A stretch of DNA of 64,000 nucleotides from NCBI GenBank assembly GCA_023251435.1, contig JAHEYU010000012.1, positions 1 through 64,000 on the forward strand, written 5' to 3'. This stretch comes from Bacteroidota bacterium. GTDB lineage: Bacteria; Bacteroidota; Bacteroidia; Bacteroidales; Prolixibacteraceae. Numbering within the stretch: the stretch's first letter is position 1; each line of letters begins with the position of its first letter. Positions 43,773-54,594 of this stretch are shown here, piece after piece. Under the pieces are notes generated by a model that worked only from the letters and a program-made list of their open reading frames with translations, was not told where the DNA came from and did not search any database. Made by a program: the position numbers and the translations under genes.

Positions 43773-44363
43773 TTATGAAATCAGTCGTAATCTTTCTTTT
43801 ATTTTTTGAAGATTCTCCAATTTTTTAGGTTCTCTGTTCCTTTTGCAAAATTTTGTATGATAATGATGTTTTGAGAGAAATCCGATTTGAATTTCAAGCC
43901 ATTGTTTATCAGTTAAATCAGGCCTGAAATGTTTTACCTCGTTATATAATTTTTGACTGATTAAATTGTACTCGTAGGTTCCCAAATATTCAAGATCAGC
44001 ATCGGCAAGAATTCCTTCAAGCGTAGTTTTTGGTTGCTGCGGTATTTTAGTGGCCATTATCATTTCACAAATCTGACCAATTTCATGGCTATTGAAACCA
44101 AAATATGGTAATTCACTTTCAGCTATTTTACAACTTTCGGCTTCGTGATTTTCATTGCTGACTTTATATCCTGTATCATGGTAGATGGCAGCAATTTTTA
44201 GAAGCAAAAGTTCTTTGGCTGAAATCTGTTCCTTTTTACCTATAAATATGGCCTTTTCCAAAACAAGTTTGGTGTGATTTAAGTCGTGATAAGTAAGAAA
44301 TTCAGGTAGATTTTTTTCCAGATCCCGGAGTATCTTTTCGTATAGTTCACTAAATCTGTTCAT
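43773..44363 (-). CDS. HD-domain phosphohydrolase
   Basis: A 196-residue soluble protein of the HD superfamily. Metal-binding pattern: LTYHDLNHTKLVLEKA, IAAIYHDTGYKVSNENHEAES (His-Asp pair), EIGQICEMIMATKIPQQPKT and ADADLEYLGTYEY (last Asp). Such proteins hydrolyse nucleotides or other phosphoesters; this short class resembles predicted metal-dependent HD phosphohydrolases. One nt separates it from the YitT gene upstream, so it is probably the last gene of the signalling run and could degrade a cyclic nucleotide, which is inference. Its stop abuts a tRNA-like fragment. Confidence 0.85.
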   Translation of the reverse strand: MNRFSELYEKILRDLEKNLPEFLTYHDLNHTKLVLEKAIFIGKKEQISAKELLLLKIAAIYHDTGYKVSNENHEAESCKIAESELPYFGFNSHEIGQICEMIMATKIPQQPKTTLEGILADADLEYLGTYEYNLISQKLYNEVKHFRPDLTDKQWLEIQIGFLSKHHYHTKFCKRNREPKKLENLQKIKERLRLIS

Positions 44364-44364
44364 G

Positions 44365-45273
44365 TTAGGTTTTTATTCCGGTTTGTTTTATAATACCTCC
44401 TTTTACTTCTTTTATACTTTGAACGTAAAAGAAAGCATTCGGATCTATTTTCGAAACTTCCTGCTTTATGCGGTGTATTTCTAATCGGGTTACAACAGTC
44501 ATTATGATATCGCAATCGTGTTTAATATTGAATGTTCCGGGAAGATATCCCCGTTCGCCTTTAAAAACAGAGATTGCTTTACCAAAATCATTTACAATTA
44601 AAGCTTTAACTGAATCAAATTCGCCCGAAATTATAGTTAGCGCAGTAAATTCTTCGAACCCATTAACCACATAATCAGAAGTTTTCATGGCTGTGAAATA
44701 AACTAAAATGGAGTACATTCCCGTTTCCAGTCCAAATTGTGTCGCAGCAATTATAATGACCAGCGAATTGAAGAGCATAATAATCTCACTTGTCGTAAAG
44801 GCTACTTTTTTTGTCGTGTAATGCGCAATAATTTCCAAACCATCAATAACGGCACCGCCCCGAATTACAAGACCAATTCCAAGTCCCATTAAAAAACCGC
44901 CAAATACGGCAATCAATAATTTGTCTTCAGTAACAATTGGAATATTGACAAAATACATGAGGACAGCCATTATGAGAATGGCAATGAGCGATTGGATAAT
45001 GAACGTTTTTCCCATTCTCCGGTAGCCTAATATTAGGAACGGAAGGTTAAATACAATCAGGAGAATGCTAATATGAATCTTAAAAACTTTGTTGACCAGG
45101 ATGGAAATTGCTGTTACGCCGCCATCGAGAAAACTGTTTGGAATCATAAATCCTTTAAGAGCAACAATAGCAATGAACAAGCCCAATACCGTGTATGTAA
45201 TGGACTGAAGCGAAAAGATGGATTTCCAATCTATTTCGTTTGATAGGCCAAATTTTTTATTCTTGCCACTCAT
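44365..45273 (-). CDS. YitT family membrane protein (DUF161/DUF2179)
   Basis: A 302-residue inner-membrane protein. Five or six helices fill residues about 20-200 (TVLGLFIAIVALKGFMIPNS, FLDGGVTAISILVNKV, GLGIGLVIRGGAVIDGLEII). The cytoplasmic DUF2179 domain follows (TALTIISGEFDSVKALIVND, GERGYLPGTFNIKHDCDIIM, FYVQSIKEVKGG). The family is widespread and of unknown function; ligand-gated transport has been suggested. It starts 51 nt after the receiver-cyclase gene and ends 1 nt before the HD gene. Confidence 0.92.
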   Translation of the reverse strand: MSGKNKKFGLSNEIDWKSIFSLQSITYTVLGLFIAIVALKGFMIPNSFLDGGVTAISILVNKVFKIHISILLIVFNLPFLILGYRRMGKTFIIQSLIAILIMAVLMYFVNIPIVTEDKLLIAVFGGFLMGLGIGLVIRGGAVIDGLEIIAHYTTKKVAFTTSEIIMLFNSLVIIIAATQFGLETGMYSILVYFTAMKTSDYVVNGFEEFTALTIISGEFDSVKALIVNDFGKAISVFKGERGYLPGTFNIKHDCDIIMTVVTRLEIHRIKQEVSKIDPNAFFYVQSIKEVKGGIIKQTGIKT

Positions 45274-45324: not shown

Positions 45325-46365
45325 TTAGCTGATAACTTCATAGACTACAACAGGCATCTCTTTGTTTTTTAGCGACATCTCTCCAATCTTGTTGCAAACA
45401 AATGACTTGTTGATTTTCAGGTAGTTTTCTTCGCTGATTAAAATTTGATTCACTTTTGCTGCCGACTGTAGACGAGCTGCAACATTCACCCTGTCGCCAA
45501 TAACGGTGTAATCGAGTCGCCGAAGTGTTGAAGAACCAATGTTTCCTGAAACTACCTCTCCACTTTCGATCCCGATGGAAACGCGAGGCTTAAAACGTGA
45601 TTCACCCTTAACAACCGGAAGTTTATCAATTGCATTTTTGATATTAAGGCTTGCATCTATGGTGCGGTCCAAATGAAATGGCCCTTTAAAAACGGCCATA
45701 ATTGCATCGCCAATGAATTTATCGATGATCCCTTTCTGTTGAATGATTTCCTTCACCATGATATCGAAATATTCGTTCAGGAGATTTACTACATAATCGG
45801 GTGTTTCCGATTCGCTAATGGCTGTAAATCCGCAGATGTCGATAAATGCAACACTGGCTTCAACGGTTTCATTTACGAGCAGTGACGTTTCAAATTCACG
45901 GCTTTCCATGAAATTCAACACATTTTCGTCAACATACATTTTCAGAATATTGTTCTCTTTAATGGCTTTCAGCGTTTCTCTGATCATTGTTACATGCTGA
46001 ATCGTTTTTTCCATGGTAAGCTCCAAATCTTCAAAATTTACGGGCTTGGTCACAAAATCGAAGGCTCCGCGGTTCATGGCCTTCCGGATGTTATCCATGT
46101 CTCCATACGCCGAAACCATCACTGTTTTTACCAAAGGATTCGATTCACTGAGTCGTGAAAGCAAAGTCAACCCGTCCATTTCGGGCATGTTTATGTCGCT
46201 TAGAACAATCTCTATATCAGGATGAAGTTGCAATTTTTTTAGAGCGTCATTACCATTTATCGCAAAAACGAATTCGTATTGCTGCTCTCTTATTTTCTGG
46301 CGAAATTTTTGCCTGATGAGTATTTCCAGATCAGTTTCATCATCGGCTATTAGAATTTTTATCAT
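45325..46365 (-). CDS. Receiver-adenylate cyclase (REC + class III cyclase)
   Basis: A 346-residue response regulator whose output is a nucleotide cyclase. REC: acidic pair near residue 8, phospho-acceptor Asp57 (LSDINMPEMDGL), VSAYGD, TKPV Lys. After a linker helix (130-160), the cyclase domain has metal Asp176 (FIDICGFT) and Asp220 (DKFIGDAIMAVF with Lys216), and DYTVIGDRVNVAARLQ giving Asn294 and Arg298 of the transition-state pair. Thr287 in place of Asp marks the class IIIb subtype, which predicts ATP as substrate. It overlaps the upstream receiver gene by 4 nt. Confidence 0.93.
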   Translation of the reverse strand: MIKILIADDETDLEILIRQKFRQKIREQQYEFVFAINGNDALKKLQLHPDIEIVLSDINMPEMDGLTLLSRLSESNPLVKTVMVSAYGDMDNIRKAMNRGAFDFVTKPVNFEDLELTMEKTIQHVTMIRETLKAIKENNILKMYVDENVLNFMESREFETSLLVNETVEASVAFIDICGFTAISESETPDYVVNLLNEYFDIMVKEIIQQKGIIDKFIGDAIMAVFKGPFHLDRTIDASLNIKNAIDKLPVVKGESRFKPRVSIGIESGEVVSGNIGSSTLRRLDYTVIGDRVNVAARLQSAAKVNQILISEENYLKINKSFVCNKIGEMSLKNKEMPVVVYEVIS

Positions 46366-46742
46366 ACGAACTTTGCTTTTAATTTTTCTTTAAGTGAACT
46401 AAAGTCAACCGGTTTGGTTAAAAAATCATCGGCTCCAAGTTGCATGGCCTGGGAGTAATTTTCATTGTCACCGTATGCAGTAATCATCATGACAATGGGT
46501 GGCGGCTTTTCATATTTTTTCTTTAAATGCCTTAATAACTCCAGACCACTCATTCCCGGCATATTAATATCCGAGAGAATTAATACCGCTTCACTCTCAT
46601 GGTTTTCCATGTATGCCAATGCATCTTCACCCGAGAAAGCAAAAACAAACTCGAGTTCACCACTTTTTATTTCCTTTCTGAAACGTTGCTCAAAAAGTGT
46701 TTGAATATCTCTTTCATCGTCAACAACCAGTATTTTCTCCAT
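46362..46742 (-). CDS. Stand-alone response-regulator receiver
   Basis: A 126-residue single REC domain without an output domain: acidic pair VVDDE, phospho-acceptor Asp58 in LSDINMPGMSGLELL, MITAYGD, and FLTKPVDF with the conserved Lys. It is similar in sequence to the receiver of the following cyclase gene, with which it overlaps by 4 nt (46362-46365), suggesting duplication. CheY-like; likely an intermediate or phosphate sink in a relay with the two kinases of this run. Confidence 0.93.
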   Translation of the reverse strand: MEKILVVDDERDIQTLFEQRFRKEIKSGELEFVFAFSGEDALAYMENHESEAVLILSDINMPGMSGLELLRHLKKKYEKPPPIVMMITAYGDNENYSQAMQLGADDFLTKPVDFSSLKEKLKAKFV

Positions 46743-46753
46743 ACTTTTATTAT

Positions 46754-48151
46754 TTAAACAGGCAAATGAATACTGAAAACGGTACCAACACCTTCTGTTG
46801 TCTCAACCTTTAGTTCGCCATTATGACCAATTGTTATGATATCATAACTCATTGATAATCCTAATCCTGTTCCTTCGCCAGTTGGTTTTGTTGTGAAAAA
46901 TGGCTGAAAGATTTTACCCAATAAACTTTGAGGAATTCCGTTTCCATTGTCACTCACTTTTATTTCAACTTTATTGCCTGTTTTTTTTGTGCTTACAGCC
47001 ACAACAGGTTCAAAGCCTTCAATGTTCAATTTTTTCTTATCATTTACTGCATAAAATGCGTTGGTCAGTAAATTCAGGATAACCCTGCCAAGATCCTGTG
47101 GCACAACACTTAATTTGCCGATATTTTCGTCAAAATCTGTTTTAAGTGTGACATTAAACGATTTGTCTTTTGCACGCAACCCATGATAGGAGAGGCGCAG
47201 ATATTCATCTGCAAGCGCGTTGATGTCGGTTGGTTCTTTAACACCTGAACTGCTACGGCTGTGTTGCAACATTCCCTTAACTATCGAATCGGCTCGTTTA
47301 CCATGATGGTTGATTTTATCAAGGTTTTGCTTTACATCGTCAGCAATTTCAGTTGCCAGTTGCATGTTGCCGGCAGCCATTTCATCTTTCATTTCATCAA
47401 TCAGTTCATTGCTCACCTCGGCGAAATTATTGACGAAGTTTAGCGGGTTCTGTATTTCATGCGCAATTCCGGCGGTGAGTTCCCCTAGTGAAGCCATTTT
47501 TTCGGATTGGATGAGTTGGGCTTGGGCCGCTTTAAGCTCAGATAAGGTGGTCTCCAGCGCATTCTTTTGCTCCGTAACCTGGTTGAAGGCTTTGACGCGC
47601 AAATTCTCAAACACAATGGAAATGAAGAATATAATCAACACCAGACCTGTTTGGCACGAAAGAGTAAAATAGTCTTCTTTTGATTCATAGTATGCTTTGG
47701 GGAATTGTAAGCCGAGGTAATCCATAAGTCCAAAACTTAGTACGATTAGAACAGCTACAATTGCCCAGAAATAGCCGCTTTTCTTTCCTGCAATAAGTAA
47801 TAATACAATAGGTGTTGAAGCCAGCCAAGGCAAAACCGGCGATTCGAACCCTCCTGAAAAATAGATGCTTCCATAAATACTTATAATGCCGATTAAACCA
47901 AAAATATTGGCAACTTTAAAGACATTGAGCCCTTGCTTCAGCAGAAATAAAAGAATCAAATAGCCAATCCAGCTTCCCAGCATGATGGAAAGGCCGGTAA
48001 AATAACCAGCCACCCAACTGGCTGCAACGTAAAACAGCGCAAATACCATGGTAACAACTATGGCATAGGCCACCAAACGCACTCGTCGTTGATATTCGGC
48101 ACTTTTATCGTTTTGTGCAGGGACAAAAAAATCTACAATTATTTTGAACAT
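46754..48151 (-). CDS. Membrane sensor histidine kinase
   Basis: A 465-residue kinase. Six membrane helices occupy residues about 25-185 (LVAYAIVVTMVFALFYVAAS, VLIVLSFGLMDYLGLQF, LVLIIFFISIVFENLRV), with no periplasmic domain, so the membrane part itself is the sensor. A short coiled coil leads to HisKA with His231 (GIAHEIQNP), N-box NLLTNAFYAV, and HATPase loops DNGNGIPQS and PTGEGTGLGLSM. The catalytic core is nearly identical to that of the kinase at 50642-52825. It lies 12 nt before the receiver gene. Confidence 0.94.
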   Translation of the reverse strand: MFKIIVDFFVPAQNDKSAEYQRRVRLVAYAIVVTMVFALFYVAASWVAGYFTGLSIMLGSWIGYLILLFLLKQGLNVFKVANIFGLIGIISIYGSIYFSGGFESPVLPWLASTPIVLLLIAGKKSGYFWAIVAVLIVLSFGLMDYLGLQFPKAYYESKEDYFTLSCQTGLVLIIFFISIVFENLRVKAFNQVTEQKNALETTLSELKAAQAQLIQSEKMASLGELTAGIAHEIQNPLNFVNNFAEVSNELIDEMKDEMAAGNMQLATEIADDVKQNLDKINHHGKRADSIVKGMLQHSRSSSGVKEPTDINALADEYLRLSYHGLRAKDKSFNVTLKTDFDENIGKLSVVPQDLGRVILNLLTNAFYAVNDKKKLNIEGFEPVVAVSTKKTGNKVEIKVSDNGNGIPQSLLGKIFQPFFTTKPTGEGTGLGLSMSYDIITIGHNGELKVETTEGVGTVFSIHLPV

Positions 48152-48175
48152 AGCAAGTGGTTTGATTTGTTGACA

Positions 48176-48895
48176 CTATTCAATTAATCTAAAAGCAATA
48201 AAGTACGAAGCCCAGATCCAAAGACCCTGAATTATGCCGAGCGGTAACTGTATTGCCAACTTCTTTTGATGGATGTGACTGAAAAACAGCGGCATAAAAC
48301 TGCATATCATGCCTTCTGCAAGGATGATATACCAGGGCGTATTAAAAATCATTTTGCAATTCACATAATACCACCAGCCTGCATCTTTAGCCCAATGCTC
48401 AAACAAGGGAATTACTGCAAAACCAATAAGGGTGGTGGCGATTATACTTACCCACATTTTTTCCTCCCGGCTGATTAACCATCCTAAATATCCGATCTGA
48501 ATAAGTAATACAGCCCAGGCAAAAGGCATATACAGAGGTGAGCAGGCAATCATTGGTTCATTAGAAACGTAGATGAGTGTACCGGTTTTTTGTATCAGCC
48601 AGCAATCGGCTAACAACTCGGTTGTACCTGCAGCAATTCCAAAAACCAGCAGCTTTTTTAAAAATAAATCATTCTGCGTAAAGGCAAATCCTGCAAGTAA
48701 ACCAAACATACCTATGGCAAGGGCAAAACCTGAAATCCAACCTAGCCTGAAAACTGCACTCAGGGAAGCTATAACTACCGTTAACACTAAAGTAAATACT
48801 ACGAATCTTACTTCTTTGATTTTTAGCTTTTGAAGCAATCGTTTTAGTAGCATAAAATGAATATTAAATGAATTTTGAAATAAATGCTTCAGCAA
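48176..48895 (-). CDS. Polytopic membrane protein, carotenoid-cyclase-like or DUF6989-like
   Basis: A 239-residue protein with about seven membrane helices and short loops. Conserved-looking acidic and aromatic residues stand at helix ends: TTELLADCWLIQKTGTLIYV, PLYMPFAWAVLLIQIGYLGW, PLFEHWAKDAGWWYYVNCKM and TPWYIILAEGMICSFMPLFF. The pattern recalls small membrane carotenoid cyclases/DUF6989-type proteins, but I cannot confirm the family. Its place between an FAD desaturase-like enzyme (23 nt upstream) and a kinase (24 nt downstream) hints at a lipid or isoprenoid role. Start may be 48895 or the Met at 48853. Confidence 0.7.
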   Translation of the reverse strand: MLKHLFQNSFNIHFMLLKRLLQKLKIKEVRFVVFTLVLTVVIASLSAVFRLGWISGFALAIGMFGLLAGFAFTQNDLFLKKLLVFGIAAGTTELLADCWLIQKTGTLIYVSNEPMIACSPLYMPFAWAVLLIQIGYLGWLISREEKMWVSIIATTLIGFAVIPLFEHWAKDAGWWYYVNCKMIFNTPWYIILAEGMICSFMPLFFSHIHQKKLAIQLPLGIIQGLWIWASYFIAFRLIE

Positions 48896-48918
48896 TACCT
48901 ACTCAAAATACCTCACGG

Positions 48919-50628
48919 TTATTTCCCGAATATTTTTCTGAAGAAGCCCAATATCAATTCTATTAGTTTAAGCCAAAAGGGAATATGAAACTGATAAGGC
49001 AGTCCCTGATTATATCTTTTCTGATCCCTGTTACGAAGAGCCTTTAATAGATTAGGCTCATGAAGGTTCCATAATTCACAAGGCGAAGCATTTACTCCTG
49101 AAGAGTCTATGATTCCATTTACGGCTCTTCGTGCGGCTTCATTGGCGCCTTCCATAGTTGCCAGGTCAGTATAAGTCCTTACATAATCCGAGGCCAAAAA
49201 CAAATTAGGAATGGCTGTGTAAGCTTCAGGTCTTAAATCCCATGAATTAACGGTATTTACCAGCAAGGGTTCTTCATTTTCCTCTCTGTCAAGAGTGCCG
49301 GGTATTAGCTTAATGTCGCCATCAATGTGCCACAAGTCAGGCGTTTTCTCCTGTACCACTTTCTCTCCATCAGTATTTAAACTACCGGATATTTGTTTCC
49401 AGATTTCATCCTTGATCTGTTCATGCGAGCAGTCTCTGGCAGGCAATCCGTTATGGCCGGGAGTATCCCAATCTGAAATATCAACAGATAAAATGCTTTT
49501 AACCGTTCCATCGCCAAGCGACGAAATATCAAAACCTTTCCAGAATTGTAGTTGTGATATGGAAGTCAACGCCCATTTTGAATCGGAATAAATACAATGT
49601 CCGTCAACAATATTTGCGCTTTCTGTTAAATAGAATTGTGCCCCGTTCATCCAGGCTACGCTCGGCGATAATTTAACGATACCTTCAAGGGTGCTGTCGG
49701 CTGCCAGCAATTCATCCGACATAAGTTTGGCCGCTCTTTCTACGGGTGTAGCAAGCAAATAATAATCTCCCTGAATAAGCTGTTCATTGCCAGTGGCCCT
49801 ATCTTTCACCTTTGCACCTGAAATCTTTCCTTTCTCTATTTCCAGTTTGGTAACTTCCTGGTTATGGAAATATTTTACTCCTTTATCATTCAGATAATTC
49901 AGCCAGGGATAAAGCCATACCTCGTTGGTTGGGCCATTCAAAACCCGGTCGGTATTAATCTTTGGATTGGCCATGTTGAAAATTAACTGAAGAAAAATAT
50001 CGCCTCCGGTTTTAGTACTCGCTTTTTTTGCGTTGGCTGCTACCAGTGTTCTGGTTAAACCTTGTACAAACAGGGCGCGGTAATTATCAGAAAACCGGTC
50101 TGCTTCAGTATAATCCCACCAGCTAATCCGTTCATAATCATTCGCCCTTCGGTCGTAACAGGAGGTCATTAATTGCCAGACTTTTTTAGCAAAGAAAGAT
50201 TTTTCTTCCTGCGTTAAACCCGTGTCCGAATGCATGGCATGAAGAACGGTTTCAAGATCATTGAATGATTTGGGGAAACTGACAATGGAAACGATCGATT
50301 TTTTTCCTTCCCTGGCCATCCTCATCCTTTCTGTAGGAACCAAATTGTCATATACAGTAGAGTTGTCACCATTCGCGTTTTTTACCGGTATGCGCTTCAT
50401 GGTATCAATAACATGTTTGTAGAATCCGGGGAAAAAACGGAACCCGTGTTCTCCGGGAAGTGGCTTCTTGTTTTCCAGATTAGAAAACGATACATCAACA
50501 CTTCTGGCTTTTCCTCCGGGATATTTTTTGTGACGTTCGTAAACTTCAACTTCAAATCCCCTTTCAATTAGTTCGTGAGCAGCGCTCATTCCGGCTACTC
50601 CACCCCCAAGAATAATAACTTTTGCCAT
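48919..50628 (-). CDS. FAD-dependent amine-oxidase/phytoene-desaturase-like oxidoreductase
   Basis: A 569-residue flavoenzyme. FAD motif VIILGGGVAGMSAAHELIER at the N-terminus, followed by VEVYERHKKYPGGKARS and GEHGFRFFPGFYKHVIDTM, as in HpnE (hydroxysqualene dehydroxylase) and carotenoid desaturase relatives; the C-terminal FAD loop is NLFLASDYVRTYTDLATMEG. The last 25 residues (FHIPFWLKLIELILGFFRKI) form an amphipathic membrane-seating helix. The substrate is probably a hydrophobic isoprenoid or lipid, but no squalene or phytoene synthase is in the window. It lies in the middle of a signalling operon, 13 nt after a kinase gene. Confidence 0.85.
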   Translation of the reverse strand: MAKVIILGGGVAGMSAAHELIERGFEVEVYERHKKYPGGKARSVDVSFSNLENKKPLPGEHGFRFFPGFYKHVIDTMKRIPVKNANGDNSTVYDNLVPTERMRMAREGKKSIVSIVSFPKSFNDLETVLHAMHSDTGLTQEEKSFFAKKVWQLMTSCYDRRANDYERISWWDYTEADRFSDNYRALFVQGLTRTLVAANAKKASTKTGGDIFLQLIFNMANPKINTDRVLNGPTNEVWLYPWLNYLNDKGVKYFHNQEVTKLEIEKGKISGAKVKDRATGNEQLIQGDYYLLATPVERAAKLMSDELLAADSTLEGIVKLSPSVAWMNGAQFYLTESANIVDGHCIYSDSKWALTSISQLQFWKGFDISSLGDGTVKSILSVDISDWDTPGHNGLPARDCSHEQIKDEIWKQISGSLNTDGEKVVQEKTPDLWHIDGDIKLIPGTLDREENEEPLLVNTVNSWDLRPEAYTAIPNLFLASDYVRTYTDLATMEGANEAARRAVNGIIDSSGVNASPCELWNLHEPNLLKALRNRDQKRYNQGLPYQFHIPFWLKLIELILGFFRKIFGK

Positions 50629-50641
50629 AGTATAATGTATT

Positions 50642-52825
50642 TTAAGTTTGTATTGGTATTTGAATAATAAACTCAGCTCCTTCCCCTTCCTTGGTTTTTA
50701 CCTTTAACTCGCCTCCATGTGCTTTCACTATATCGTAACTCAACGACAATCCCAAGCCTGTTCCCTGCCCGGTTGGTTTGGTGGTGAAAAAGGGTTGGAA
50801 GATTTTATCGACGATGTGGGTGGGGATGCCGGGGCCGTTATCGGAAACAGAAATTAAGACCCCCTTGCCCCCCGAAGGGGGGACCCATGAAGCGGTTTTA
50901 ACAGTGACAGTCGGTTTATAATCAGTTCCCCGTTTTTCAATCCCCACTCCTGGGGGGGCTGTTACTGCATGAAACGCATTGGTTATCAGATTCAGAATTA
51001 CACGTCCAATATCTTGTGGAACAACACTTATTTTACCGATATTTTCGTCAAATTCTGTTTTAAGTGTGGCATTAAACGATTTATCTTTTGCACGCAAACC
51101 GTGATAAGCCAGCCGCAGATATTCATCAGCCAATGCATTGATATCAGTAGGTTCTTTTTGTCCTGAACTGGCTTGGGAATGTTGCAACATTCCTTTTACA
51201 ATTGCATCGGCGCGTTTCCCGTGGTGGTTTATTCTTTCGAGGTTTTGTTTTACGTCGTCAGCAATTTCAGTTGCCAGTTGCCAGTTGCCGGCAGCAATTT
51301 CATCCTTCATTTCATCGAGCAACTCGGTGCTGACTTCCGAAAAATTATTGACGAAGTTTAATGGGTTCTGTATCTCATGAGCAATTCCGGCAGTTAGTTC
51401 TCCAAGCGATGCCATTTTTTCGGATTGGATGAGTTGCGATTGAGTTGCTTTCAGTTCGGTTAAAGTAGCTTCAATACTTTCCTTTGCTTTTTCCAGTTTA
51501 TAGAAATCTTCATACCGGGCATAGGCAATCGAGAATGCTTCAGCTAAAGCTTTTACCAATTCAATTTTCTCATCCGAAAGTGGTGAAACATTGCCGACAT
51601 AAAGCATTCCCTGAACGAACGGAACAAAATGAAGATCGAGTGATTCAGGTGGTAGTTCAGATCCCTGGTAAGTTATTCTATCCTGAATCTGTCCCAATTC
51701 GAGCATAGATTGTGTCCAGTTAATAAACTGATCACGATTCCAGTGTTCCCTGTAAACAATACCCTTTTCCCAGTGATGAACTATAATTTTGGTCAGCGAT
51801 GTAGATTCGATTGGCAAACTTAATGCGCCCAGCGGTTTTACATCCGGAGTAGTTAAGTAAACATGCACATTCGATTTTTCTTCTTCAACAATGAATACGC
51901 CACAACGAATAAACGGTACATCCAGCGAATTCAGTTCGTGCCAGATAACAGGTGTAATACGTTGAAGATCGTCAGCTGTGCGCATGGAGGCAATCTGCCC
52001 CCGAACCCGGTCGAGCGACGATGCTTTTCTCGCTTCTTTTGCCTGTGCTTCGGCCTGTTTTAAATCAACATATCTTCTGTATGTCTGCGAAAAAACATTG
52101 GCAAACTTTTTAAATATCGTGCTGTTTTCAGAAGAAAATGGTTCAAAAGTAAATACAAATAAACCACCTTCCCTGAACATAAATGAAGTGCAATAATGAT
52201 CGGGCAAACTGCCCATTGTGTTTGAAATAGGATAGTTTAAAGAAGTTGCCAGCGATCGGTAATAAAGATCCTTGTCATTGCCTTGCAGCTTAAAGCTAAA
52301 AAAATCCTTTTCCTGTAACCATGCTTCAAATGAACCTTTTAGCAATGGATGAATATTGACATCAACCTCACCCACAATCTGCATAACCTGCCCCTTTCCG
52401 GCACCGGAGGCTGTCCATAGTTCAATTTTCTCCTCTTCCTTTTTCCCAATAATAATACCACAACGAATGGTTTTTATTCCCAGGTTCTCCAATTCGGCAA
52501 ATAAAACAGCTGTTGCATTTCCAACATCGCTGCTGTTATACATCATCATGGTGCTTGAACGAACCCGCTCAAGCGACGCTTCTATTTCTAAATCGCGGTT
52601 CTGTGCTTCCACCGCTTTTCGTTTGCGTTCCAGCTCTTCAATGGTTTCTTCGAGCAAAATTGCTGTAGTGCGTTTTACCTTTTCAGTACGGTCGAGTTTG
52701 AATGTTGTTATGGTCAGTTCTTTATCAACATCCATTACTACTTTGCTAAGTGAAGCTTTTTCTTCTACTGATAACGAGTCGTTTTGCTGGAGAAATTGAG
52801 TTATTTTCCGGAGGTTCTGGTTCAT
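50642..52825 (-). CDS. Soluble hybrid-sensor histidine kinase with two GAF-like modules
   Basis: A 727-residue kinase without membrane segments. A coiled coil (about 50-84) leads to two similar sensor modules, 84-260 (ASLERVRSSTMMMYNS; IKTIRCGIIIGKKEEEKIEL) and 269-440 (SSLDRVRGQIASMRTAD; VPFIRCGVFIVEEEKSNVHV), each ending in a helix into the next. HisKA His483 (GIAHEIQNP), N-box NLITNAFHAV, G-boxes DNGPGIPTH and PTGQGTGLGLSL. Around residues 627-656 a C/G-rich dispersed repeat is translated in frame. The gene starts 1 nt after the FIST gene ends, so the FIST protein is the likely partner or input. Confidence 0.93.
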   Translation of the reverse strand: MNQNLRKITQFLQQNDSLSVEEKASLSKVVMDVDKELTITTFKLDRTEKVKRTTAILLEETIEELERKRKAVEAQNRDLEIEASLERVRSSTMMMYNSSDVGNATAVLFAELENLGIKTIRCGIIIGKKEEEKIELWTASGAGKGQVMQIVGEVDVNIHPLLKGSFEAWLQEKDFFSFKLQGNDKDLYYRSLATSLNYPISNTMGSLPDHYCTSFMFREGGLFVFTFEPFSSENSTIFKKFANVFSQTYRRYVDLKQAEAQAKEARKASSLDRVRGQIASMRTADDLQRITPVIWHELNSLDVPFIRCGVFIVEEEKSNVHVYLTTPDVKPLGALSLPIESTSLTKIIVHHWEKGIVYREHWNRDQFINWTQSMLELGQIQDRITYQGSELPPESLDLHFVPFVQGMLYVGNVSPLSDEKIELVKALAEAFSIAYARYEDFYKLEKAKESIEATLTELKATQSQLIQSEKMASLGELTAGIAHEIQNPLNFVNNFSEVSTELLDEMKDEIAAGNWQLATEIADDVKQNLERINHHGKRADAIVKGMLQHSQASSGQKEPTDINALADEYLRLAYHGLRAKDKSFNATLKTEFDENIGKISVVPQDIGRVILNLITNAFHAVTAPPGVGIEKRGTDYKPTVTVKTASWVPPSGGKGVLISVSDNGPGIPTHIVDKIFQPFFTTKPTGQGTGLGLSLSYDIVKAHGGELKVKTKEGEGAEFIIQIPIQT
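50860..50960. repeat. C/G-rich dispersed palindrome inside the kinase gene
   Basis: CCCCCC-GAA-GGGGGG (50868-50882) within CCCCCTTGCCCCCCGAAGGG (from 50860), plus CCCCACTCCTGGGGGGG (50943-50959), match the repeat between nuoM and nuoN. They encode SWVPPSGGKG and TAPPGVGI between conserved HATPase segments and are absent from the paralogous kinase. Confidence 0.75.
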
Positions 52826-52826
52826 T

Positions 52827-53981
52827 TTATATTTCTTTTAAAGCCACCCAGCAACAAGTGTTGTTGTGAAATTCGTTGTTTCCGTTCCTGGTCCTGCCAT
52901 ATTCGCCATAAGTAAAAAAACCTGCCATTGGCACATTGAAAGCTTTTCGTACTCCCTCAACTTCGTCGCCAGCCAATGGCCCGAACTGCGTGAGTCTCCC
53001 AATACAGGAAAATATAAGCAACGCATCTGCTTCGGGCATTTCGTCGTGTTGAATTTTTTCGGCATTGAATTTAACTTCTTCGATAACCTCAAAATCGGGA
53101 GGAAGAGTAAAGCGAACCTTGTCTCCCTCGTGAATGCTGCCAAGAACCGAGACTGATTTATCTTTCCAGTTGAACATACCTACTCCCCGAATAATGGCTT
53201 CACCTTTGTCGCGCGACACACTAAATGCAATACCCATGCCCGAGGGATTGAAAGTTTCTGCTTCTTCAGGCGATAAATTCAAACCCAGGTATTTCAACAC
53301 CATTTCTGCAGCAGGCTTGTTATCAATCTCGTAAACCCAGTTGCCAATGGCTTTTGTAATAATCTTTTCTGTCCCTACAGGTTTTTGTCCGGATGCAGCT
53401 TCACCGGTTGCAATTATTTTATCTCCATCAAATACAAGCATAATGATGCCTCTTTTTGTAAGCAGGTGATTGGTGAAAACCACTGATTCATCAAAAATGA
53501 AATCATCACCGGCACGACCTCCCCAAACGGTCGTACCTTTTCCGGCAACCGATTCAATTGTTCTGATAAGCTGATCTCCCAACAAAGACTCCAATTCTCC
53601 GCGGGCGTAAAAACTGGTAGAAAGAATAATAGTCGGATTTTTAAATCTCCCTTTTGCTTTCTCCGCCATTTCTTTGGCCACCGCTTCAGGTTCTTTATCG
53701 CGGTAATCGTACAGAATTATTTCGAAGTTCGCCGGATTTATATCCATCAACAAAACAGCGATACCCCCGTTTGTGATATCCCCGTCAATAAATTCACCCG
53801 AACTGGTTGCACCAAAAATCTGGATGTTCTTCTGGTCGAGGAGATTACTCACTGCATCAATGTCTTGCTTGATGGAGATAAATACAACGGCGAGGCTTGG
53901 CTTGTAACCATCAGCTATGCTTTGCTCAAGAGCGGTTTTAATCTCTTCTGTTGAATTTCCTTTTATTGATTTTGCTTTCAT
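52827..53981 (-). CDS. FIST N/C-domain sensor protein
   Basis: A 384-residue soluble protein made of FIST_N (about 20-210: YKPSLAVVFISIKQDIDAVS, IFGATSSGEFIDGDI, GIAVLLMDINP, TVWGGRAGDDFIFDESVVF) and FIST_C (about 220-370: AIGNWVYEIDNKPAAEMVLK, LLIFSCIGRLTQFGPLAGDE, MAGFFTYGEYGR, NNTCCWVALKE). FIST proteins sense small molecules; the NosP subgroup binds heme and nitric oxide and works through a co-encoded histidine kinase. Adjacency to a kinase (1 nt) fits that arrangement, though heme binding is not shown by sequence alone. It overlaps a possible small upstream ORF by 4 nt. Confidence 0.92.
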   Translation of the reverse strand: MKAKSIKGNSTEEIKTALEQSIADGYKPSLAVVFISIKQDIDAVSNLLDQKNIQIFGATSSGEFIDGDITNGGIAVLLMDINPANFEIILYDYRDKEPEAVAKEMAEKAKGRFKNPTIILSTSFYARGELESLLGDQLIRTIESVAGKGTTVWGGRAGDDFIFDESVVFTNHLLTKRGIIMLVFDGDKIIATGEAASGQKPVGTEKIITKAIGNWVYEIDNKPAAEMVLKYLGLNLSPEEAETFNPSGMGIAFSVSRDKGEAIIRGVGMFNWKDKSVSVLGSIHEGDKVRFTLPPDFEVIEEVKFNAEKIQHDEMPEADALLIFSCIGRLTQFGPLAGDEVEGVRKAFNVPMAGFFTYGEYGRTRNGNNEFHNNTCCWVALKEI

Positions 53982-54202
53982 AGTAAGTCGAAGTTGGAGG
54001 TATGATGAGTTTTTGTAATAAGTTCTATTTTTTCATGAAGCAGTGGAACCGATTTACGATCATGCCTTATGCACTGTTCAGTAAAATACGTTAAATTACC
54101 ATTTGGGGTTTGTGCCAGCGAGAAGATGGAAGATGTAAAGTATGAAAACACAATAAATGCTGCATAAATATGCAGCGAGATTTGCCTGACGATAATATGC
54201 AT
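53978..54202 (-). CDS. Possible small membrane-anchored protein leading the signalling operon
   Basis: A 74-residue frame, MHIIVRQISLHIYAAFIVFS with a hydrophobic stretch to about residue 30, then a polar tail (GNLTYFTEQCIRHDRKSVPL). Not recognised. In favour: it starts about 75 nt after a good promoter and its stop overlaps the FIST ATG in an ATGA arrangement. Against: short, no known relatives recalled, and it may simply be an open leader. Confidence 0.35.
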   Translation of the reverse strand: MHIIVRQISLHIYAAFIVFSYFTSSIFSLAQTPNGNLTYFTEQCIRHDRKSVPLLHEKIELITKTHHTSNFDLL

Positions 54203-54280: not shown

Positions 54281-54312
54281 AAAATATACATCTGTTTTAA
54301 AATGATTTCAAA
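54281..54312 (-). promoter_or_regulatory. Promoter of the FIST/kinase operon
   Basis: TTTG (54309-54312), a 20-bp spacer and TATATTTT (54281-54288, seven of eight to TAnnTTTG) on the minus strand. Upstream, GTGAGCTAAA occurs twice 15 bp apart (54424-54433 and 54439-54448), a possible regulator-binding direct repeat. Confidence 0.6.
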
Positions 54313-54515: not shown

Positions 54516-54521
54516 TTACGG

Positions 54522-54594
54522 AGCCTCTCATGGGACTCGAACCCACGACCTGCTCATTACGAATGAGCTGCTCTACCAACTGAGCTAAAGAGGC
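54522..54594 (-). tRNA. tRNA-Thr (anticodon CGU)
   Basis: Folds as a complete 73-nt cloverleaf on the minus strand: acceptor GCCTCTT/GAGAGGC, D-arm AGCTCAGTTGGTAGAGC, anticodon arm GCTCATTCGTAATGAGC with CGT at the anticodon position, T-arm GTGGGTTCGAGTCCCAT, discriminator T. CCA is not encoded. It decodes ACG. A terminator follows. Confidence 0.97.

Follow-up and report, generated by a model that had tools for sequence, protein, structure and literature searches.

A Bacteroidota signalling operon of two modules: a recurrent cassette of a flavoenzyme, a membrane protein and a membrane sensor with adenylate cyclase, and a FIST-kinase pair read as accessory input

A tight row of minus-strand genes at 45325-54202 in a Prolixibacteraceae genome (contig JAHEYU010000012.1, whose positions 1 to 64,000, hereafter the window, were analysed) places a FIST sensor protein, two histidine kinases and an adenylate cyclase in the company of a phytoene-desaturase-like flavoenzyme and a multi-helix membrane protein. 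The question raised by this locus is whether these genes form a single system, and what such enzymes could be doing among signalling genes. The gene set is confirmed as a real operon, but it is built of two modules. The core consists of the flavin adenine dinucleotide (FAD) enzyme, the seven-transmembrane (7TM) protein, the membrane kinase, the receiver and the receiver-adenylate cyclase. We read it, with a probability of about 0.5, as a mobile synthase-receptor cassette, in which the enzymes would make or modify a terpenoid, a matched sensor would read it and cyclic AMP (cAMP) would be the output. The FIST protein and its kinase are best read as an accessory, dispensable input rather than as part of the recurrent system. 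The genes of the operon, with families called by Pfam/NCBIfam matches, are the following in transcription order:

53978..54202, minus strand: open reading frame (ORF) of 74 codons with a signal-peptide-like start, overlapping the FIST gene by 4 nucleotides (nt)
52827..53981, minus strand: FIST_N + FIST_C sensor protein, putative accessory input (Pfam)
50642..52825, minus strand: HK1, soluble HisKA/HATPase histidine kinase, partner of the FIST protein in the putative accessory input (Pfam)
48919..50628, minus strand: FAD enzyme of the cassette core, an Amino_oxidase/HpnE-like, phytoene-desaturase-like FAD oxidoreductase with a C-terminal hydrophobic helix
48176..48895, minus strand: DUF6989 multi-helix membrane protein of about seven helices (PF22497, 150 bits)
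46754..48151, minus strand: HK2, membrane HisKA/HATPase kinase, whose residues 1-200 are the cassette-specific six-transmembrane (6-TM) sensor
46362..46742, minus strand: lone receiver, REC (Pfam)
45325..46365, minus strand: REC-CYC, receiver + class III (IIIb-type) adenylate cyclase (Pfam)

Family matches and gene order agree with the initial annotation, which had placed a flavoenzyme of the HpnE/phytoene-desaturase type and a membrane protein between both kinases. Its spacings between the FIST gene and the soluble kinase (1 nt) and between HK2 and the receiver (11 nt), as well as the overlap of the receiver with REC-CYC (4 nt), were found again in the coordinates. With the annotated starts, the other gaps are 13 nt (HK1-FAD), 23 nt (FAD-DUF6989) and 24 nt (DUF6989-HK2); the range of 1-24 nt holds, but only two 4-nt overlaps were counted where several had been claimed. 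The TTG start of the DUF6989 gene at 48895 is probably wrong, because all 7 other DUF6989 homologues aligned start at the position of the window ATG 48853, and with this start the gap to the FAD gene would probably be about 65 nt.

The FAD enzyme is patchily distributed. It occurs at 17 loci of named genomes from several phyla, in 13 of 244 genomes drawn from one larger Bacteroidota family, in 3 of 101 relatives (window genome included) and, among 395 genomes drawn phylum-wide, only in the window's own; 15 plasmid records were also matched, and the neighbourhoods of 6 of them were opened. In Bacteroidota, the FAD gene was found at 22 loci, 20 of which were used after dropping L005 (a near-copy of L004) and L008 (where the contig ends inside the gene). 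A 7TM gene adjoins the FAD gene at 17 of the 20, and a sensor, kinase or cyclase stands in the same gene row at 19, with L087 and L088 reaching contig ends and the L087 sensor counted from a 32-residue fragment; at L086 the 7TM gene and its kinase are encoded on the other strand, the kinase being the closer of the two to the FAD gene. A class III cyclase is present in the row at 13 of the 20 loci; by chance, less than 2% of loci would have a cyclase within four genes, if a set of 4000 genes is assumed to hold 3 to 9 cyclases (a maximum of 9 in one genome was counted at E 1e-20). Since this operon arrangement recurs across loci, it is more than chance. Moreover, the link between the flavoenzyme family and class III cyclases extends over four phyla (Bacteroidota, Pseudomonadota, Actinomycetota and Gemmatimonadota). 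The isoprenoid enzyme, membrane protein, membrane kinase and cyclase had been proposed as one unit together with the FIST protein and HK1. When neighbourhoods were compared across Bacteroidota, the FAD enzyme, the 7TM protein and the sensor/cyclase did recur, cAMP synthesis being the most frequent output of the cassette, as had been suggested, but the FIST protein and its kinase did not. No paper describing the cassette was found in a literature search.

FIST orthologues with 93, 87, 49 and 47% identity are present in four other genomes of the genus, all of them adjoining a gene with an HK1-like start, and the FAD enzyme was not found in these four genomes (E 1e-60). A fifth genome without the FAD enzyme, G296, holds a FIST fragment of 50 residues, and in the two FAD-carrying congeners the FIST genes are all distant (26%) and located on other contigs. 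No FIST match was found in the stretches fetched around the FAD gene at other loci. The closest relative, L003, has the same gene order (FAD enzyme 94% identical, DUF6989 91%, HK2 80%, receiver 78%, receiver-cyclase 72%), and directly before its FAD gene a frame-split remnant (L003:9780-9984) matches the last 68 residues of HK1. This C-terminal remnant indicates that an HK1-like kinase was once present in this lineage and was then lost while the five-gene core was kept, and it points to a recent disappearance of the FIST-HK1 input.

The reading of FIST, both kinases, the enzymes and the cyclase as one inseparable nine-gene phosphorelay is largely refuted by these neighbourhoods and appears highly improbable: FIST-kinase pairs live without the FAD enzyme in the four congeners, FIST is missing from the stretches around other FAD genes, and HK1 is reduced to scrap in L003. 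It would fit the tight gene spacing, the former position of HK1 beside the FAD gene in the L003 ancestor too, and the likeness of the two kinases, since the cores of HK1 and HK2 are 76% identical and, after HK1, the closest match that the genome offers to the HK2 core reaches 40%. These identities indicate that HK1 and HK2 plausibly address the same receivers, which both may feed, and the phosphotransfer is predicted from the HisKA/HATPase kinase and receiver domains present in the window.

Regarding the FIST protein itself, a FIST_N + FIST_C gene does stand beside a kinase gene, and this pair recurs in congeners. The protein had been taken for a NosP-type sensor of nitric oxide (NO), but it scores 53.2 bits against the NosP model NF041558, far under its cut-off of 450, so NO sensing cannot be assumed. 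With the NosP-NahK-NarR system (FIST-kinase-receiver), as outlined in PMC8846402, the window shares the FIST gene beside a histidine kinase; it differs in the low NosP score, in the accessory position that we propose for the FIST protein, and in an operon without a cyclic di-GMP output domain. In a related locus (L045:4516-7944, genome G304) a large kinase lies upstream of the FIST gene, with a core 75% identical to that of HK1. The 74-codon ORF of the window has no Pfam match and is 44% alike over 32 residues to the start of this 1142-aa kinase; because of this resemblance, it is probably a relic.

The structure model of the FAD enzyme has an overall fold closest to plant phytoene desaturase, a solved isoprenoid desaturase. 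HpnE is its best NCBIfam match, with 79.3 bits against a cut-off of 283, and every one of the 16 family members in the alignment hits HpnE with E <= 1e-5; against the phytoene_desat model TIGR02731 it reaches 39.2 bits (cut-off 569). Fold and best profile matches are therefore common to this enzyme, the plant-type phytoene desaturase and the hydroxysqualene dehydroxylase HpnE, but the scores far below both equivalog cut-offs set it apart as a separate family. At other loci, the enzyme is fused to, or adjoins, a polyprenyl synthetase, and at L079 a polyprenyl synthetase-like gene lies about 3.5 kb from the second FAD gene of that locus.

The first about 200 residues of HK2 show about six hydrophobic peaks. 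This sensor domain, which fills the output slot at most loci, is fused to an adenylate cyclase at L010, L077, L078, L079, L080, L081, L083 (twice) and L084, and to a kinase at L003, L007, L085, L086 and L088. When 46 genomes were searched with a sensor-only profile at E 1e-3, 15 of them yielded 16 copies in all, 16 of 16 at FAD loci, a figure that is weakened as support for the cassette by the training of the profile on FAD-locus sensors, most of the 16 copies being training rows. None was found in the 26 genomes without the FAD enzyme, and the association with the FAD gene gave a Fisher value of 3.0e-8 over the 46 genomes and 0.009 with the training genomes dropped. Independent evidence comes from this absence elsewhere and from matches in G719 (1e-22), in G637 (8e-5, a fragment at a contig end) and in G684 (nearly identical to a training row). 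Five genomes with the FAD enzyme had no sensor match. Its place is taken in G496 by a kinase-AAA-GAF-cyclase that is soluble, in G497 and G499 by kinases of another sort, in G721 by a cyclase whose membrane part differs, and in G736 by nothing.

CqsA/CqsS of Vibrio is a quorum-sensing synthase-receptor pair. In a CqsS-adenylate cyclase chimera, the 6-TM anchor of CqsS drives a class III cyclase (PMC4821796), which is a precedent for lipophilic control. A candidate lipophilic-signal synthase next to a 6-TM sensor kinase, and a 6-TM design able to drive a class III cyclase, would be the features in common with CqsA/CqsS and the chimera; the cassette differs in its enzymes, a phytoene-desaturase-like flavoenzyme and a membrane protein of terpene-cyclase type or DUF6989, and in that its sensor-cyclase fusions are natural. 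Furthermore, membrane adenylate cyclases have been presented as lipid receptors (PMC12505454, PMC11606603, PMC12414865). Rv1625c is a further precedent for lipophilic control of 6-TM cyclases, as it is reported to respond to C18 mono-unsaturated fatty acids (PMC12505454), and the function of the membrane domains of adenylate cyclases is treated as an open question in a 2025 viewpoint (PMC12414865). Like the cassette proteins, Rv1625c is, in these accounts, a class III cyclase joined to a 6-TM domain whose function is receptor-like but disputed; the cassette, unlike it, has a candidate ligand synthase in the same gene row.

The 7TM slot of the Bacteroidota loci is occupied by DUF6989 at 8 and by a Pyr4-type transmembrane terpene cyclase (PF25129) at 9, L083, which carries both types in two successive units, being counted under DUF6989. 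Counting over-cut-off matches (below the cut-off there were 4 in the phylum draw and 1 in the 244 genomes), DUF6989 is present in 5 of the 244 genomes, all with the FAD enzyme and each adjoining its gene, and in 2 of 296 genomes drawn phylum-wide, namely the window's genome and a partial match in G233. A Pyr4-type gene is found in 10 of the 244 genomes, 7 of which have the FAD enzyme; one copy adjoins the FAD gene in 6 of these and lies three genes away in G632. Around six Pyr4-type genes located away from FAD, neither a FAD gene nor a class III cyclase was detected in the 13 kb fetched, and none has a kinase as direct neighbour; at L109 about 3 kb separate the Pyr4-type gene from a pair of receiver/kinase genes. 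At L114:5324-7281 (G680) the Pyr4-type gene directly follows an MpaB/Lcp-type oxygenase gene, without flavoenzyme or sensor, and this could be a different terpenoid pair.

In the alignment of the Pyr4-type cassette members, the Glu of NxxxE and two Asp are invariant, and we take these residues, from Pyr4 work, to be catalytic. The Pyr4-type proteins found in the slot elsewhere also exceed the PF25129 cut-off with the acidic residues conserved, as expected of this terpene-cyclase family. In DUF6989, a separate set of residues, acidic and aromatic, is invariant; the window protein matched nothing but DUF6989 in Pfam, and no PF25129 match was found in the window genome (G000).

The named bacterial Pyr4-like cyclases (XiaH, TylF, GroF, zigralones) serve natural-product pathways, as described in PMC13307353. 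By analogy, the FAD and 7TM proteins could make a secreted terpenoid, e.g. an antibiotic, whose production the cyclase or kinase merely regulates. However, the members described in that source belong to natural-product clusters, whereas here a PF25129 protein with conserved acidic residues stands in a signalling cassette, in the slot at 9 of the 20 Bacteroidota loci and in the second unit of L083. No P450 or prenyltransferase was seen in the 20 of 109 flanking ORFs scanned, where the genes are housekeeping or unrelated (S-adenosylhomocysteine hydrolase, SecA, a tRNA-type methyltransferase, an amino acid permease), and across the 46 genomes no copy of the sensor domain was found away from FAD loci, all of which makes a natural-product cluster very unlikely.

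Sensor type and 7TM type tend to change together, as judged from sequence comparison. The strongest single piece of evidence for paired swapping comes from L083, where, in one gene row, sensor-cyclase 1 follows DUF6989 and sensor-cyclase 2 follows the Pyr4-type gene. Identity between the two is 90% in the linker-catalytic part and 26% over the sensors. The sensor of sensor-cyclase 1 shares 85% identity with its counterpart in L084, likewise placed behind DUF6989. In addition, L086 (DUF6989) and L010 (Pyr4-type) are well-supported sisters by their FAD enzymes, with sensors in different supported groups. On a FAD tree of 12 loci the 7TM label needs 4 changes and is unclustered (500/500 shuffles as low), and on the sensor tree of the same 12 loci it needs 2 changes (23 to 30 of 500 shuffles as low).

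Paired swapping of this kind fits a direct protein contact equally well as a ligand. In such a case the 7TM protein would be a co-receptor or regulatory subunit touching the 6-TM sensor and the FAD enzyme a redox-sensing subunit, with no small molecule involved, and DUF6989, for which no enzyme kinship has been shown, would suit this role. We consider it unlikely, since the Pyr4-type members lie over the Pfam terpene-cyclase cut-off and keep their invariant acidic residues, the FAD enzyme forms a fusion with polyprenyl synthetase at other loci, and L088 and L085 have the sensor without a 7TM neighbour.

Concerning the output, the class III cyclase residues (two metal Asp, substrate Lys + Asp/Thr, Asn and Arg) were all recognized by eye in REC-CYC and the sensor-cyclases, with Lys + Asp at the substrate positions in the sensor-cyclases and Lys + Thr in the window REC-CYC. 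The roles of these residues are assumed by us as in cyclase alignments, and the substrate residues are presumably those of adenylate cyclases of classes IIIa and IIIb. Near the cassette in L077, L083 and L084 there are a protein binding cyclic nucleoside monophosphates (cNMP) and a HEAT-repeat protein of 913-917 aa (Pfam), as well as an HD-domain protein (Pfam on the L083 copy). They are candidates for possible cAMP effectors or phosphodiesterase, and occupy these stretches:

L083:15515-19503, effector candidates
L084:2736-6712, effector candidates
L077:3754-7591, effector candidates

Feedback pairs of a sensor and a pathway are common, and the enzymes could make a structural terpenoid or carotenoid-like lipid while the sensor/cyclase monitors the state of the membrane or of a precursor, so that the product is no signal. 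The phytoene-desaturase fold of the FAD enzyme agrees with this, and a sensor type that follows the product type would be expected here too. On the other hand, no terpenoid-family gene appeared among the 20 of 109 unassigned flanking ORFs scanned with Pfam, effector candidates included, although L079 does have its polyprenyl synthetase-like gene. Moreover, a response of the whole cell is indicated by an output that consists of cAMP or a phosphorelay and by the cNMP-binding proteins located near three cassettes. A homeostatic sensor thus seems rather unlikely.

Several observations weigh against the synthase-receptor reading. The contrast between the trees is modest: well-supported branches force only 2 changes (12-locus FAD tree) and 1 change (sensor tree), near-copies help the clustering of the 7TM label on the sensor tree, and the L077 and L078 sensors sit on long branches whose placement is uncertain. 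A sensor tree of 14 rows has weak support for its deep split (69/70) and puts L078 on the wrong side of it, and FAD and sensor distances are uncorrelated (Mantel r 0.12, p 0.21; 10 loci, near-duplicates and L085 dropped). Regarding composition, the FAD gene of L082 has none of the cassette partners, L088 and L085 lack a 7TM gene, the 6-TM sensor is replaced by a soluble kinase-AAA-GAF-cyclase at L004 and by different sensors at L006, L009 and L076, and no cyclase was detected near the FAD gene at 9 of 15 non-Bacteroidota loci. The partial DUF6989 match in G233 (over the cut-off, 61 positions) has no FAD gene or cyclase within 12.6 kb around. Finally, no kinship between DUF6989 and Pyr4 was detected (hhalign probability 0.6%, with small alignments) and the DUF6989 structure model is poor (pLDDT, a model confidence score, of 56), so DUF6989 may not be an enzyme.

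The observed ground on which we still prefer a synthase-receptor cassette is its composition, its recurrence, the exclusive linkage in the genomes searched, the swapping in the slot and the fold; from these we infer substrate, product, ligand and direction of regulation as follows. The membrane-held phytoene-desaturase-like flavoenzyme would oxidise or otherwise modify a polyprenyl-type lipid, as its fold and its polyprenyl synthetase partners suggest. The 7TM protein would then cyclise or further shape this lipid, which for the Pyr4-type loci is proposed from family membership and the conserved acidic residues and for DUF6989 from position only; if so, DUF6989 and Pyr4-type loci would make different products. 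The 6-TM sensor would read the product in the membrane, in line with its exclusive co-occurrence and paired swapping. Where it is fused to an adenylate cyclase, an architecture that is seen, the sensor would drive cAMP synthesis directly; in the window, the predicted route runs from the sensor through HK2 to the lone receiver and the receiver-cyclase, and so to cAMP. In the window genome, FIST and HK1 would feed these receivers as well, as a second input that is dispensable.

The surroundings of the operon in the window comprise the following features:

54520-54594: tRNA-Thr gene, upstream of the operon
54281..54312, minus strand: putative sigma-70-like operon promoter, with a -35/-10 match at 54311-54283 (10/12 positions)
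44365..45273, minus strand: YitT-family membrane protein, possibly cotranscribed, 51 nt beyond REC-CYC
43773..44363, minus strand: HD-domain protein, 1 nt beyond the YitT gene

The -35/-10 match is present where the initial annotation had put the operon promoter, but such sites are no more frequent in the region than in shuffles (26 found, 29.9 +/- 5.9 expected), which makes it weak. A strong terminator-like hairpin with a T run (-25 kcal) follows the tRNA-Thr gene, so a fresh transcript start is plausible. The YitT and HD genes are on the same strand and may belong to the operon, the HD-domain protein being possibly a cyclic-nucleotide phosphodiesterase. A YitT gene is also near the cassette in L003, L079 and L088, and an HD homologue lies within about 8 kb of the FAD gene in L003, L077, L079, L083, L084 and L088. 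The YitT-HD gene pair (window:43773-45273; also L044, L046 and L047) is near signalling genes in several congeners, either the FAD cassette or a class III cyclase gene with a FIST-kinase, as if this site were a hotspot for signalling cargo.

Outside Bacteroidota, the flavoenzyme family also takes part in a recurrent cluster with a class III cyclase-AAA protein, a Linocin_M18-type encapsulin shell and a polyprenyl synthetase fused to, or adjoining, the flavoenzyme:

L011:4146-13011, encapsulin-flavoenzyme cluster
L012:4765-12952, encapsulin-flavoenzyme cluster
L018:8350-16419, encapsulin-flavoenzyme cluster
L019:4893-12958, encapsulin-flavoenzyme cluster
L038:4026-12190, encapsulin-flavoenzyme cluster (Ruegeria, with an annotated DUF3237 protein)
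L039:4021-12190, encapsulin-flavoenzyme cluster (Ruegeria, with an annotated DUF3237 protein)

These could be an isoprenoid-chemistry encapsulin system tied to cyclic nucleotides. Terpene enzymes near the shell gene are likewise reported for encapsulin operons in PMC8346489, there for family 2, whereas the shell of the six clusters listed is of family 1 type (Linocin_M18); the terms adenylate, FAD and squalene are absent from the main text of that paper. Moreover, very large Ser/Thr kinase-AAA-GAF proteins occupy the sensor slot or lie beside the FAD gene in L004 (12413-17563, where the protein ends in a cyclase) and L017 (11720-16961, where it is split into two overlapping frames). They are candidates for an alternative, soluble receptor that would serve this enzyme family.

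Taken further, the cassette leads to a tentative proposal, somewhat short of an even chance, that endogenous terpenoids act as bacterial membrane hormones, with the FAD enzyme and an interchangeable 7TM cyclase making the ligand and a co-evolving 6-TM receptor reading it, whose native fusion partner is an adenylate cyclase or a kinase that would feed a receiver-cyclase. Since the L083 cyclases differ almost only in their sensors, with a different candidate enzyme each, this receptor hypothesis is directly testable by part swaps. If true, the cassette would be, to our knowledge, the first case in nature of a 6-TM adenylate cyclase paired as receptor with the synthase of its ligand, and the recurrent link between the flavoenzyme family and class III cyclases would be explained. 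A candidate ligand factory that naturally adjoins a 6-TM cyclase would also bear on the question of what the membrane domains of adenylate cyclases do. Terpenoids would be added to the bacterial signals read through cAMP, and DUF6989 would gain a role, as a new family of membrane terpene-modifying enzymes.

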